Assembly (NCBI GenBank): GCA_014360845.1
Contig: JACIWR010000005.1
Location: forward strand, 1 to 33,547
From: Anaerolineae bacterium
GTDB lineage: Bacteria > Chloroflexota > Anaerolineae > JACIWR01
DNA length: 33,547 nucleotides
Direction: 5' to 3'
The position numbers and the translations under genes were made by a program. Within the stretch, counting starts at the first letter, position 1. Every line of letters starts with the position of its first letter. The notes under the pieces were generated by a model. That model saw nothing but the letters and a program-made list of their open reading frames with translations. It ran no database searches and was not told the DNA's origin. Shown in pieces: positions 5,109-8,698 of this stretch.

Positions 5109-5137
5109 CCAGCACCGACCAGCAGAGCCGGTGCTGG
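5109..5137. repeat. Hairpin CCAGCACCG / CGGTGCTGG, similar to the 57-335 repeat hairpins
   Basis: 9-bp perfect inverted repeat, 11-nt loop. Confidence 0.6.
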
Positions 5138-5159
5138 ACACCCCGGCAATAATTTATGT

Positions 5160-5188
5160 TTGACAATTCGTGGTCTTTGAGGTATTAT
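5160..5188 (+). promoter_or_regulatory. Strong sigma70-type promoter TTGACA-N17-TATTAT
   Basis: TTGACA 5160-5165, TATTAT 5183-5188, 17-nt spacer. Confidence 0.75.
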
Positions 5189-5194
5189 AAAAAT

Positions 5195-5386
5195 ATCCAA
5201 AAACAGCACTACGTCTGTGCGCGGGAGAAAGCCCTCCGACTCATCGTGTTCCCTCTGGGACAGATGAGCGATAAGGTGTGGGGAGCAATTCCCACGCCCG
5301 CCGTGTTTGCAAAGGAGGAGCTCCGCCGATCTATCCGCACCGCCCGGCCGGTGACGGATCAGAAGGGGAGCGACCTCCTTTTTTTG
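5195..5386 (+). ncRNA. Candidate structured RNA (about 190 nt) from the promoter to a terminator-like stem; family unknown
   Basis: Hairpins CTCATC..TGTTCCC/GGGACA..GATGAG and GTGGG/CCCAC; terminal stem AAAGGAGG..GCTCC..ATCCG.CACCG / CGGTG.CGGAT..GGAGC..CCTCCTTT followed by T run. Confidence 0.55.
5310..5386 (+). terminator. Complex intrinsic terminator-like structure ending in CCTCCTTTTTTT
   Basis: Nested stems AAAGGAGG/CCTCCTTT, GCTCC/GGAGC, ATCCG-CACCG/CGGTG-CGGAT, then poly-T. Confidence 0.6.
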
Positions 5387-5540
5387 ATGGGTTTCGGATT
5401 AGGTCCGACGGCGAATCGGTAACGTCGTGCCATTCCGACACGGCCCGAGTTGGGCTGAGAAGGGGGGTGATGCAAAACGCAATAAAAACCTCTTGTGCCC
5501 CGGTTTTGGCAGATCTGATCAACCTGGTACTCTCCCTATA

Positions 5541-5657
5541 GAGTGTTGGCGACCGGCCATTCCCATGCGGGGCCTCTTGCTTCCACCGCATTGCCAGATG
5601 CGGTGGCACGGCGGCGGGATCTAACCATCTCGCCAGAGCAGCAGGGCCATAACACTC
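5541..5657 (+). promoter_or_regulatory. Candidate molybdenum/tungsten cofactor (Moco/Tuco) riboswitch-like RNA upstream of AOR
   Basis: Closing stem GAGTGTT (5541-5547)/AACACTC (5651-5657); inner GGCC/GGCC, CCACCGCAT/ATGCGGTGG (5583-5606) and GGCGGGAT/ATCTCGCC (5613-5634) stems; GCGACCGGCC...GGGGCCTCTTGC segments; context is an AOR operon. Confidence 0.6.
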
Positions 5658-5675
5658 AGGGGGAGACTACCACCA

Positions 5676-5710
5676 ATTTGAACTATTCAGACAAGGGGGT
5701 AAGTTCAAAT
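5676..5710 (+). promoter_or_regulatory. Start-site hairpin ATTTGAACT / AGTTCAAAT with GGGGG Shine-Dalgarno in the loop and the AUG at the stem base
   Basis: 9-bp perfect inverted repeat; AOR ATG at 5709-5711. Confidence 0.7.
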
Positions 5711-7451
5711 GGCCAAGATTCTGCGCGTGAATATGACCGATCGCTCGGTCAAATACGAAGACGTACCGGAAAAGTACCGGTTCATGGGTGGGCGGTGGCT
5801 GACCTCTTCTATCATCGCCGATGAGGTGGATCCCACCTGCCATCCCCTGGGGCCCAACAACAAACTTGTCTTCGCCCCGGGGATCGTCACCGGCACCAAC
5901 GCGCCTTCTTCGGGTCGCGTATCGGTAGGCGGCAAATCTCCGCTCACCGGAGGCATCAAGGAATCCAATGCTGGATCCAACTGGCCGCAATTCCTCGCCA
6001 AACTGGGCATTAAAGCCATCGTTGTCGAAGGCCACCCCTCCGATGCCGGGTGGTGGGGGTTGCACATCACCAAGGACGGCGCCGAGTTCTTCCCCGCCGA
6101 CGAGTATGCTGGCCGCAGCCTCTACGAAGTCTTCCCGCTCCTCTTCGAGCGCTTCGGGAAGAAAGTGGCCATCGCAGCGACAGGCGTAGCGGGCGAGATG
6201 CGAATGGCCATGGCCGGAGTTTGCTTCAACGACACCGAGAACCGCCCCAGCCGCTACTCCGGTCGTGGTGGATTGGGCGCTGTGATGGGTGCTAAACACC
6301 TCAAATTCATCGTCGTAGACCCGCAAGGCGCGCCCGGTGTCGAGATCGCCGACAAGGACCTCTTTGAACGCGGGCGCAAGAAACTGATCGAGGCCCTGCG
6401 CACTCACGACATCACCAAGCCCAAAGGCACCCTCAACACTTACGGCACCGCTGCCCTGGTTAACGTCCTCAACGAGGCCGGCGCGTACCCCACTCGCAAC
6501 TTCCGCGAGGGCCGCTTCGAGGGCGCAGCCACCACCTCCGGCGAGGCTATCTTCGAAGGCAATAAGCAGCGCCTGGGCAAGGAACTCTACAACCACGGCT
6601 GCCACCCCGGTTGCATCATCCAGTGCTCCAACACCTGGCACAAACCAGATGGAACAGAGTATGTTTCCTGCATCGAGTATGAGTCCACCTGGGCGCTGGG
6701 GGCCAACTGCGGCATTGACAACCTGGACGACATCGCCGAATTGATCTGGCTGTGCAACGACCTGGGCCTCGACACCATTGAGACCGGCGGCACTATCGCC
6801 GTGGCCATGGACGCCGGACTGCTGGAGTTCGGTGATGGCAAAGGCGCTATCCGCTTATTGCGCGAAGAGGTCGGCAAGGGCACGCCCCTGGGCCGCATCC
6901 TGGGCAACGGCGCAGCCTTCACCGGTCGCGCCTTTGGCTGGACGCGGGTGCCGGGGTGCAAAGGGCAGAACATGCCCGCCTACGAGCCCCGCGCCGTCAA
7001 GGGCATCGGCATCACTTATGCCACCACCCCCATGGGCGCCGACCACACCGCCGGATACACCATCGCCCCCGAGATTCTGGGTGTCAGCGGCAAGGTGGAC
7101 CAGTTCGCCACAGACAAAGCGGACCTTTCCCGCAACTTCCAGCACTCCACCGCCTTCATTGACTCCTCCGGCCACTGCCTGTTCATCGCCTTCGCCATCC
7201 TGGACATCCCCAGCGGCTTCGAGGGGTTCGTGGAAGAGTGTGCTGGTGTCGTGGGTGCCGACTGGACCGGAGACGACGTCATGAGAATCGGCAAGGAGAT
7301 TCTCGACAAGGAGGTAGCCTTCAACCGGGCGGCAGGCTTCACCTCAGCTCACGACCGCGTACCTGAGTTCATGAAGTACGAGAAACTCCCGCCGCACAAC
7401 GTCGTCTGGGATGTACCCGATGAGGTATTGGACGCCGTCCACGGCGCATAA
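5709..7451 (+). CDS. Tungsten-dependent aldehyde ferredoxin oxidoreductase family protein
   Basis: MAKILRVNMTDRSVKYEDVPEKYRFMGGRWLTSSIIADEV...GRVSVGGKSPLTGGIKESNAGSNWPQFLAKLGIKAIVVEG; AOR-type Cys motif CHPGCIIQC. Confidence 0.92.
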   Translation: MAKILRVNMTDRSVKYEDVPEKYRFMGGRWLTSSIIADEVDPTCHPLGPNNKLVFAPGIVTGTNAPSSGRVSVGGKSPLTGGIKESNAGSNWPQFLAKLGIKAIVVEGHPSDAGWWGLHITKDGAEFFPADEYAGRSLYEVFPLLFERFGKKVAIAATGVAGEMRMAMAGVCFNDTENRPSRYSGRGGLGAVMGAKHLKFIVVDPQGAPGVEIADKDLFERGRKKLIEALRTHDITKPKGTLNTYGTAALVNVLNEAGAYPTRNFREGRFEGAATTSGEAIFEGNKQRLGKELYNHGCHPGCIIQCSNTWHKPDGTEYVSCIEYESTWALGANCGIDNLDDIAELIWLCNDLGLDTIETGGTIAVAMDAGLLEFGDGKGAIRLLREEVGKGTPLGRILGNGAAFTGRAFGWTRVPGCKGQNMPAYEPRAVKGIGITYATTPMGADHTAGYTIAPEILGVSGKVDQFATDKADLSRNFQHSTAFIDSSGHCLFIAFAILDIPSGFEGFVEECAGVVGADWTGDDVMRIGKEILDKEVAFNRAAGFTSAHDRVPEFMKYEKLPPHNVVWDVPDEVLDAVHGA

Positions 7452-7507
7452 AATCTGATCTGCGCGGTGCCGGGCGCCAACTGGTGCCCGGCACCCACGA
7501 GGGAGCT

Positions 7508-8698
7508 ATGGCCAAAATCGCCCTTGACGCCAGCGGACAGATCGTGTTACCCGCCCGCTGGCGACAACGCCATCAACTGGATACCGGTGGAGAGCTGCTA
7601 TTGGAAGAAACCGAGAGCGGCCTGGTCCTCCACCCCATCCGGCCCGATGTGCGCAAGGTATACCTGGAAGTGACCACGCGCTGCAACCTCCACTGCCGCA
7701 CCTGCGTGCGCAACATCTGGTCCGAACCTCTGGCCGACATGGAGGAGAACACCTTCGCCCGCCTGCTGGCCCAGATGCAGGAGTTGCCCCAACTGCGCGA
7801 GGTCGTCATCGGCGGCTATGGGGAGCCCTTCGTCCACCCCCGTCTCCTGGACATGCTATCCGCCCTCAAGGGCCTGGGCCTTAAAATCACCATCAGCACC
7901 AACGGGCTGCTGCTAGATGAGGAGCGGGTCACGGCGCTGGTACAAATGGGGATAGACGGCCTCACCGTCTCCCTCGACGGGGCCAACCCGGAAACTTACG
8001 CCAGCATCCGCCAGGGCTCCAATCTTCACGCTGTGCTGCGCAACATCGAGACCCTAAAGCGGGTCAAAGCAAAGTTGGGCCAGGTGCTCCCGCGCCTGGG
8101 TATCGAGTTCGTGGCCCTGAGACGGAATGTGGAAGAATTGCCCGATCTGCTGCGGCTGGCGGGGAGGATGGGAGCCAATCGGGCCATCATCACCAACGTT
8201 CTGCCCCACACGCCAGAGATGGCCCAGGAACTGCTCTACAGCCGCGACGGGAGCGAACCCCTACCCGTTCCCACCGGTTGGGCCGTTCTCAGCGATGACT
8301 GGCTGCTGTGGGGCACGATGGAAATGCCGCGCATGACCTGGGGCGCTGAGCGACGCTGCCGCTTCATCGCCAGCCACGCCCTGGTCGTCGGCTGGGATGG
8401 AGGAGTGAGTCCCTGCTACGCCCTGTCTCACTCCTACCCCTACTACATATTCGGTCGCCGCAAGGAGGTCAGCCGCTACACCTTCGGCAACGTGAACCGG
8501 TCCACCCTGACCGAGATATGGACCTCCGAGGATTACATCCGTTTCCGGGCGGAAGTGCGCCGCTTCCACTTCCCCTCGTGTGTGGATTGCGAGTTGCGCG
8601 ACACTTGTGATTTGACGGCCGCCAACGAGGCTTGCTGGGGCTGGACCCCTTCCTGTGCCGATTGTCTATGGGCACAAGACATCATTCGCTGTCCGTGA
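7508..8698 (+). CDS. Radical SAM/SPASM protein of the tungsten-oxidoreductase maturase type, with N-terminal SpoVT-AbrB-like segment
   Basis: CNLHCRTC radical SAM motif; C-terminal CVDCELRDTCDLTAANEACWGWTPSCADC; N-terminal MAKIALDASGQIVLPARWRQRHQLDTGGELLLEE; adjacent to AOR; ATG at 7508 with GAGGGAG upstream. Confidence 0.85.
   Translation: MAKIALDASGQIVLPARWRQRHQLDTGGELLLEETESGLVLHPIRPDVRKVYLEVTTRCNLHCRTCVRNIWSEPLADMEENTFARLLAQMQELPQLREVVIGGYGEPFVHPRLLDMLSALKGLGLKITISTNGLLLDEERVTALVQMGIDGLTVSLDGANPETYASIRQGSNLHAVLRNIETLKRVKAKLGQVLPRLGIEFVALRRNVEELPDLLRLAGRMGANRAIITNVLPHTPEMAQELLYSRDGSEPLPVPTGWAVLSDDWLLWGTMEMPRMTWGAERRCRFIASHALVVGWDGGVSPCYALSHSYPYYIFGRRKEVSRYTFGNVNRSTLTEIWTSEDYIRFRAEVRRFHFPSCVDCELRDTCDLTAANEACWGWTPSCADCLWAQDIIRCP

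Follow-up and report, generated by a model that had tools for sequence, protein, structure and literature searches.

A P3-lacking Moco/Tuco riboswitch with its own terminator, predicted to act as an ON switch, upstream of an AOR-family gene in an Anaerolineae bacterium

Background

RNAs of the Moco riboswitch class (RF01055) occur with and without the stem P3. Regulski et al. 2008 found no P3 in 58 of 176 Moco RNAs, and these P3-less RNAs go with tungsten (Tuco) genes (PMC2408646). The same study listed four members with a GCAA tetraloop, all without the receptor, and reported that the E. coli RNA lost its regulation, with no switch of specificity, once P3 had been deleted (PMC2408646). A review of tandem switches mentions tandem Wco switches in front of genes that do not belong to cofactor synthesis.

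The RNA described here lies in a stretch of 33,547 nucleotides, which is referred to as the window. With the P3-lacking Tuco/Wco form of RF01055 it shares P1, P2, P4 and P5, the segments CUCCGA and AAAGGAG (PMC2408646), the terminator platform and the link to tungsten enzymes. It differs from this form in a GCAA tetraloop without receptor, which is the minority form, in a flipped P5 pair, in an A.C pair at the base of P4, and in an ON-type overlap of aptamer and terminator. Precedents were found for each of the subtype's oddities except for the P5 flip and the A.C pair. The E. coli moaA Moco riboswitch has the aptamer class in common with the window RNA, but it contains P3, hides the ribosome-binding site in P1, acts as an OFF switch and precedes a biosynthesis operon. 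The adenine switch of Mandal and Breaker 2004 is reportedly a transcriptional ON riboswitch. Its sensor stem and terminator are likewise mutually exclusive and ligand binding disrupts termination, whereas aptamer and ligand are unrelated to those of the window RNA. In the open-licence literature no description of an ON-type Wco switch upstream of AOR came to light; the class is known and the variant is new in detail.

Without its cofactor a tungsten enzyme is of no use, and an RNA that allows AOR to be made only when the cofactor is present would be an economical gate. ON switches before the users of a cofactor and OFF switches before its makers would form a natural contrast, which could separate ligand choice from the direction of control in a riboswitch class that is hard to assay.

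Identity and architecture of the structured RNA

A cmscan search matched positions 5222-5333 of the + strand to RF01055, the Moco/Tuco riboswitch, with 45.1 bits against a gathering score of 36 and over model positions 1-135. This was the sole Rfam match above the gathering score in the whole window. Weak matches to snoRNAs, IR_84, STnc350 and Xist scored far below their gathering scores and were rejected as chance. The structured RNA is itself the Moco-type riboswitch, with its own terminator; it is not a stand-alone sRNA, nor does it form a first attenuator in front of such an element. The first-pass annotation of this DNA had not recognised its family and had itself held that a match to a known family would speak against its reading, as the RF01055 match does. 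It had proposed either a stand-alone sRNA, 6S-like in size, or a first attenuator stacked before a Moco-like element further downstream. Neither 6S RNA nor any other catalogued sRNA family was found above the gathering score in the window by the Rfam search. An attenuator before AOR was rightly seen, but the stacking was not upheld: RF01055 matches once, no second Moco element was detected downstream in the window, and the leader at 5388-5708 gave no Rfam match near the gathering score. The features of the locus are as follows.

5160-5188, + strand: sigma-70/A-type promoter TTGACA-N17-TATTAT, 11 of 12 consensus matches
5222-5333, + strand: Moco/Tuco riboswitch aptamer, P3-lacking form (RF01055; model R1, built on the 22 homologues of alignment A1, covers 5228-5320)
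5233-5237, + strand: P1 5' strand CCUCC (RF01055 alignment; pairs kept in 22 of 22 sites)
5240-5268, + strand: P2 hairpin without GAAA-tetraloop receptor (8 pairs with double-sided changes)
5274-5299, + strand: P4 hairpin with GCAA tetraloop at 5285-5288 (5 pairs with double-sided changes)
5300-5310, + strand: P5 (5300-5301 with 5309-5310), outer pair G-C where the family has C-G
5314-5318, + strand: P1 3' strand GGAGG, also within the terminator 5' arm (folds of homologues)
5311-5385, + strand: intrinsic terminator, stem 5311-5381 (AAAGGAGG ... CCUCCUUU) followed by T to 5385 (fold, conservation in relatives)
5386-5708, + strand: remaining AOR leader outside the riboswitch, about 320 nt (Rfam search, homologue comparison)
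5709-7451, + strand: AOR-family protein (AFOR_N, AFOR_C), 580 aa, the putative regulated gene (domain matches)
7484-8698, + strand: tungsten cofactor oxidoreductase radical SAM maturase, TIGR04317 (427.5 bits against a curated cut-off of 380)

Both conserved segments, CUCCGA and AAAGGAG, are present in the window aptamer, and P3 is missing according to the RF01055 alignment and to A1, an alignment of homologous sites. The typical GAAA tetraloop of P4 and its receptor in P2, which are common but not universal in RF01055 and no excluding feature, are replaced here by GCAA without receptor. At the base of P4 (5274/5299) an A.C pair stands in place of the family's G.U. The two hairpins noted in the first reading correspond to P2 and P4, and its long nested terminator stem with T run was also borne out; P1 and P5 had been missed.

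The near-consensus promoter of the first-pass annotation held as well. When the 110 bases preceding the aptamer were shuffled, 1% of the shuffles scored as high, and 20 of 22 homologous sites carry, at a similar place, a promoter that agrees with the consensus at 10 or more of 12 positions. Transcription probably starts near 5195. The RNA 5195-5386 folds with -88.9 kcal/mol (z = -5.3), which none of 200 shuffles equalled. Seven T (5379-5385) close the terminator, whose stem is long and interrupted; it was absent from the output of a simple terminator scan and was seen instead by RNA folding and by stem conservation among relatives. An 88-aa ORF (5156-5422) overlaps the riboswitch mechanically. 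Since aptamer lengths of the relatives differ by 1-3 nt and not by whole codons, a coding role is disfavoured, in agreement with the earlier statement that there is no convincing ORF. Just 5' of the promoter, a twelve-pair hairpin at 5109-5137 is followed by TTTTCTT on the - strand.

The riboswitch is linked to tungsten-cofactor genes, namely AOR and the TIGR04317 maturase, and the latter probably belongs to the AOR operon. Three more RF01055 sites (L001, L002 and L003) were found elsewhere in the same genome: one upstream of two genes with Oxidored_molyb domains, one upstream of an ECF/CbiQ-type transporter, and one upstream of a short-chain dehydrogenase and a second, distant AOR.

Homologous sites and covariation

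The closest relatives of the AOR protein are from Anaerolineae, Thermoflexia and other Chloroflexi MAGs, and the DNA of AOR relatives was sampled at 80 loci. A search with R1 of the window and these 80 loci yielded 20 sites above 75 bits, followed by a gap to 49.5. The alignment A1 comprises 22 sites with this aptamer, including the window and two members (L035 and L036) from other genomes, outside the 80 loci. The unit of promoter, aptamer and terminator precedes AOR orthologues in 22 Chloroflexota genomes, and in most of them the AOR start codon follows the aptamer end after some 90-125 nt.

The covariation analysis of orthologous regions, which the first-pass annotation had named as a check, showed the stems to be conserved, with double-sided changes in 14 of 29 pairs. 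In A1, 62 double-sided cells were counted compared to 20.8 in shuffles (none of 500 shuffles was as high), and 92.9% of the cells were paired compared to 38-50% with the partners slid. P1, P2 and P4 are backed by covariation, P1 weakly by one pair with double-sided change. The two pairs of P5 before AAAGG are present in 22 of 22 sites, with the outer pair flipped against the Rfam consensus; they are invariant, and covariation therefore lends no support to P5. The pair at the base of P4 is A.C in nine of the 22 sequences and G.U in twelve. An exchange of A.C and G.U is a swap of wobble pairs of similar shape. P4 tetraloops in this 22-site subtype are GCAA, GUAA or GUGA, whereas the family has GAAA. 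In comparison to the family consensus and to most RF01055 members of the same phylum, the subtype is characterized by lack of P3, lack of a GAAA receptor and an outer G-C pair in P5.

Overlap of P1 and terminator

In the window, GGAGG at 5314-5318 can pair with CCUCC either at 5233-5237, forming P1, or at 5374-5378 adjoining the T run. In the full-length minimum-energy fold the 3' strand of P1 is part of the terminator at 21 of 22 sites. The exception is L052, the closest relative, where the stretch ended at a premature T run; in a longer stretch its five bases find their partners downstream. In the other 21 sites, enforcing P1 costs 3-13 kcal/mol, with 6.9 for the window. Such an overlap at a single site proves little, because about half of the shuffled downstream sequences also pair with the G-rich strand (expected 10.8 of 22). 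In the light of this control, the case is built on fixed position and covariation and not on pairing alone: the terminator stems begin at the identical GGAGG in every one of the 22 homologues, and the bases after GGAGG covary with the 3' arm of the terminator (AAC/GTT, AATCC/GGATT and others). In L035, L052 and L059 the overlapping hairpin is present and the T run is poor.

As GGAGG is common to P1 and terminator, ligand binding should block termination, which predicts an ON switch. In our judgement the RNA is quite likely a cis-acting, P3-lacking ON switch of the Moco class (Tuco/Wco) that controls AOR and the maturase via transcription termination. The absence of P3 and the associated genes point to the tungsten cofactor as the probable ligand, and the predicted ON direction derives from the P1/terminator overlap. 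Transcription would start near 5195 and the aptamer would be the first part to fold. If tungsten cofactor is absent, P1 with its weak 5 bp would be invaded, GGAGG would pair with the CCUCC beside the T run, and transcription would stop near 5385, leaving a short transcript about 190 nt long. Bound cofactor would hold P1 and occupy GGAGG; the base of the terminator would be blocked and polymerase would read through into AOR.

Terminator layout, gene type and the P5 flip

The RF01055 search covered 40 relatives, 399 genomes from the phylum and the 12 genomes behind AOR loci, together with the phyla to which a Desulforudis and a Deltaproteobacteria genome belong, at about 300 genomes each. This survey resulted in 196 distinct, pattern-recognised RF01055-type sites from three phyla. 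Gene classes were assigned by regular-expression labels, with a profile search check on six loci only. Among sites with a convincing terminator, 29 of 31 upstream of cofactor-using enzymes overlapped P1 and 2 were separate; upstream of biosynthesis or transport genes, 4 of 37 overlapped P1 and 33 were separate. The P5 flip, GC..GC in place of CC..GG, also followed the layout: 29 flipped sites were overlapping and none separate, whereas 13 of 104 unflipped sites were overlapping and 91 separate. The Fisher values of 1.6e-12 for gene class (before allowing for relatedness) and 1.6e-19 for P5 type overstate the strength of these associations, because the sites are related and unevenly sampled and the labels are regular expressions. 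Nor are the two correlations independent, since few user genes lie outside the P5-flipped group (3 overlapping, 2 separate). Four further P5-flipped sites had no detected T run, and in these the P1-overlapping hairpin was seen by eye. On inspection by eye, several of the 13 unflipped overlapping sites looked doubtful and L038, L048 and L063 looked sound; L048 and L063 are located upstream of AOR orthologues.

Outside the AOR group, the P5-flipped sites L165, L264 and L356 were found upstream of formate dehydrogenase alpha. The matches to this protein break off at a stop codon around profile position 194, which is consistent with a selenocysteine codon. L008 and L024, also P5-flipped, precede Fe-S subunits similar to those of molybdo-enzymes. 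It may be speculated, at somewhat less than even confidence, that P3-less, receptor-less and P5-flipped RNAs constitute a distinct ON-type tungsten-cofactor subtype for tungsten enzymes, and that the flip marks the direction of control class-wide. The enzymes of such a subtype would be AOR in Chloroflexota, and formate dehydrogenase both there and in a second phylum, the one sampled around the Deltaproteobacteria genome. Perhaps the flip acts by removing an alternative pairing of CCUCC in P4/P5 with GGAGG of P1. Tandem RF01055 aptamers with starts about 200-230 bases apart were observed in two cases, L014/L046 (G006:C28) and L015/L047 (G024:C130).

Ligand and direction of control

Among the alternatives, a ligand other than the tungsten cofactor specifically, i.e. 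the molybdenum cofactor or both cofactors, carries the most weight, though we regard it as unlikely. Mo and W pyranopterins are nearly identical, and absence of P3 is a statistical marker of tungsten and not a proof. Moreover, another RF01055 site of the same genome precedes the two Oxidored_molyb-domain genes, and P3-containing, P5-flipped relatives such as L008 precede molybdo-enzyme-like Fe-S subunits. Against this stand the missing P3 and the gene itself, an AOR accompanied by a tungsten maturase.

An OFF switch, in which cofactor binding favours termination like in feedback on biosynthesis genes, appears still less probable. OFF control is documented for the tested member, E. coli moaA (PMC2408646), and in front of moaA, moeA and modA the terminators of RF01055 sites mostly lie apart from P1. 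Here, however, the terminator uses the P1 strand, which makes the bound aptamer and the full terminator mutually exclusive, and in none of the 29 P5-flipped RNAs with a detected terminator did it lie apart from P1.

The AOR leader downstream of the riboswitch

While most homologues have only a short spacer between terminator and AOR, the window contains a palindromic repeat of about 146 nt at 5526-5671, which occurs once in its genome. Three further genomes from the class hold copies or pieces of it (L308, L309 and L310), and these copies have the form GGTAGTC-CCC-GTGTTG ... CAACAC-GGGG-GACTACC. It looks like a mobile-type intergenic repeat that was inserted in the leader and is unrelated to the riboswitch. 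This repeat, which the leader of the closest relative lacks, and the position of the AOR start codon and ribosome site within a hairpin would fit a relic, i.e. a defunct terminator or aptamer with AOR driven from elsewhere; with promoter, conserved aptamer positions and T run all intact in the window, we consider this highly improbable. A stand-alone small RNA, for which the discrete product of about 190 nt expected from termination could be taken, is the least credible explanation in view of the RF01055 match and of the shared arrangement upstream of AOR orthologues, where in most cases some 90-125 nt separate the aptamer end from the AOR start.

Two minor observations concern the same leader. 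A possible leader ORF of 23 aa (5470-5541) lies behind AAGGGGGG. At the matching place L052 has a 25-aa ORF, ending beside the AOR start, with few residues in common (LAD, then NL) in this comparison of two sequences by eye. The loop of a nine-pair hairpin at 5676-5710 (ATTTGAACT/AGTTCAAAT) contains the ribosome site of AOR, and the start codon lies at the foot of the stem.
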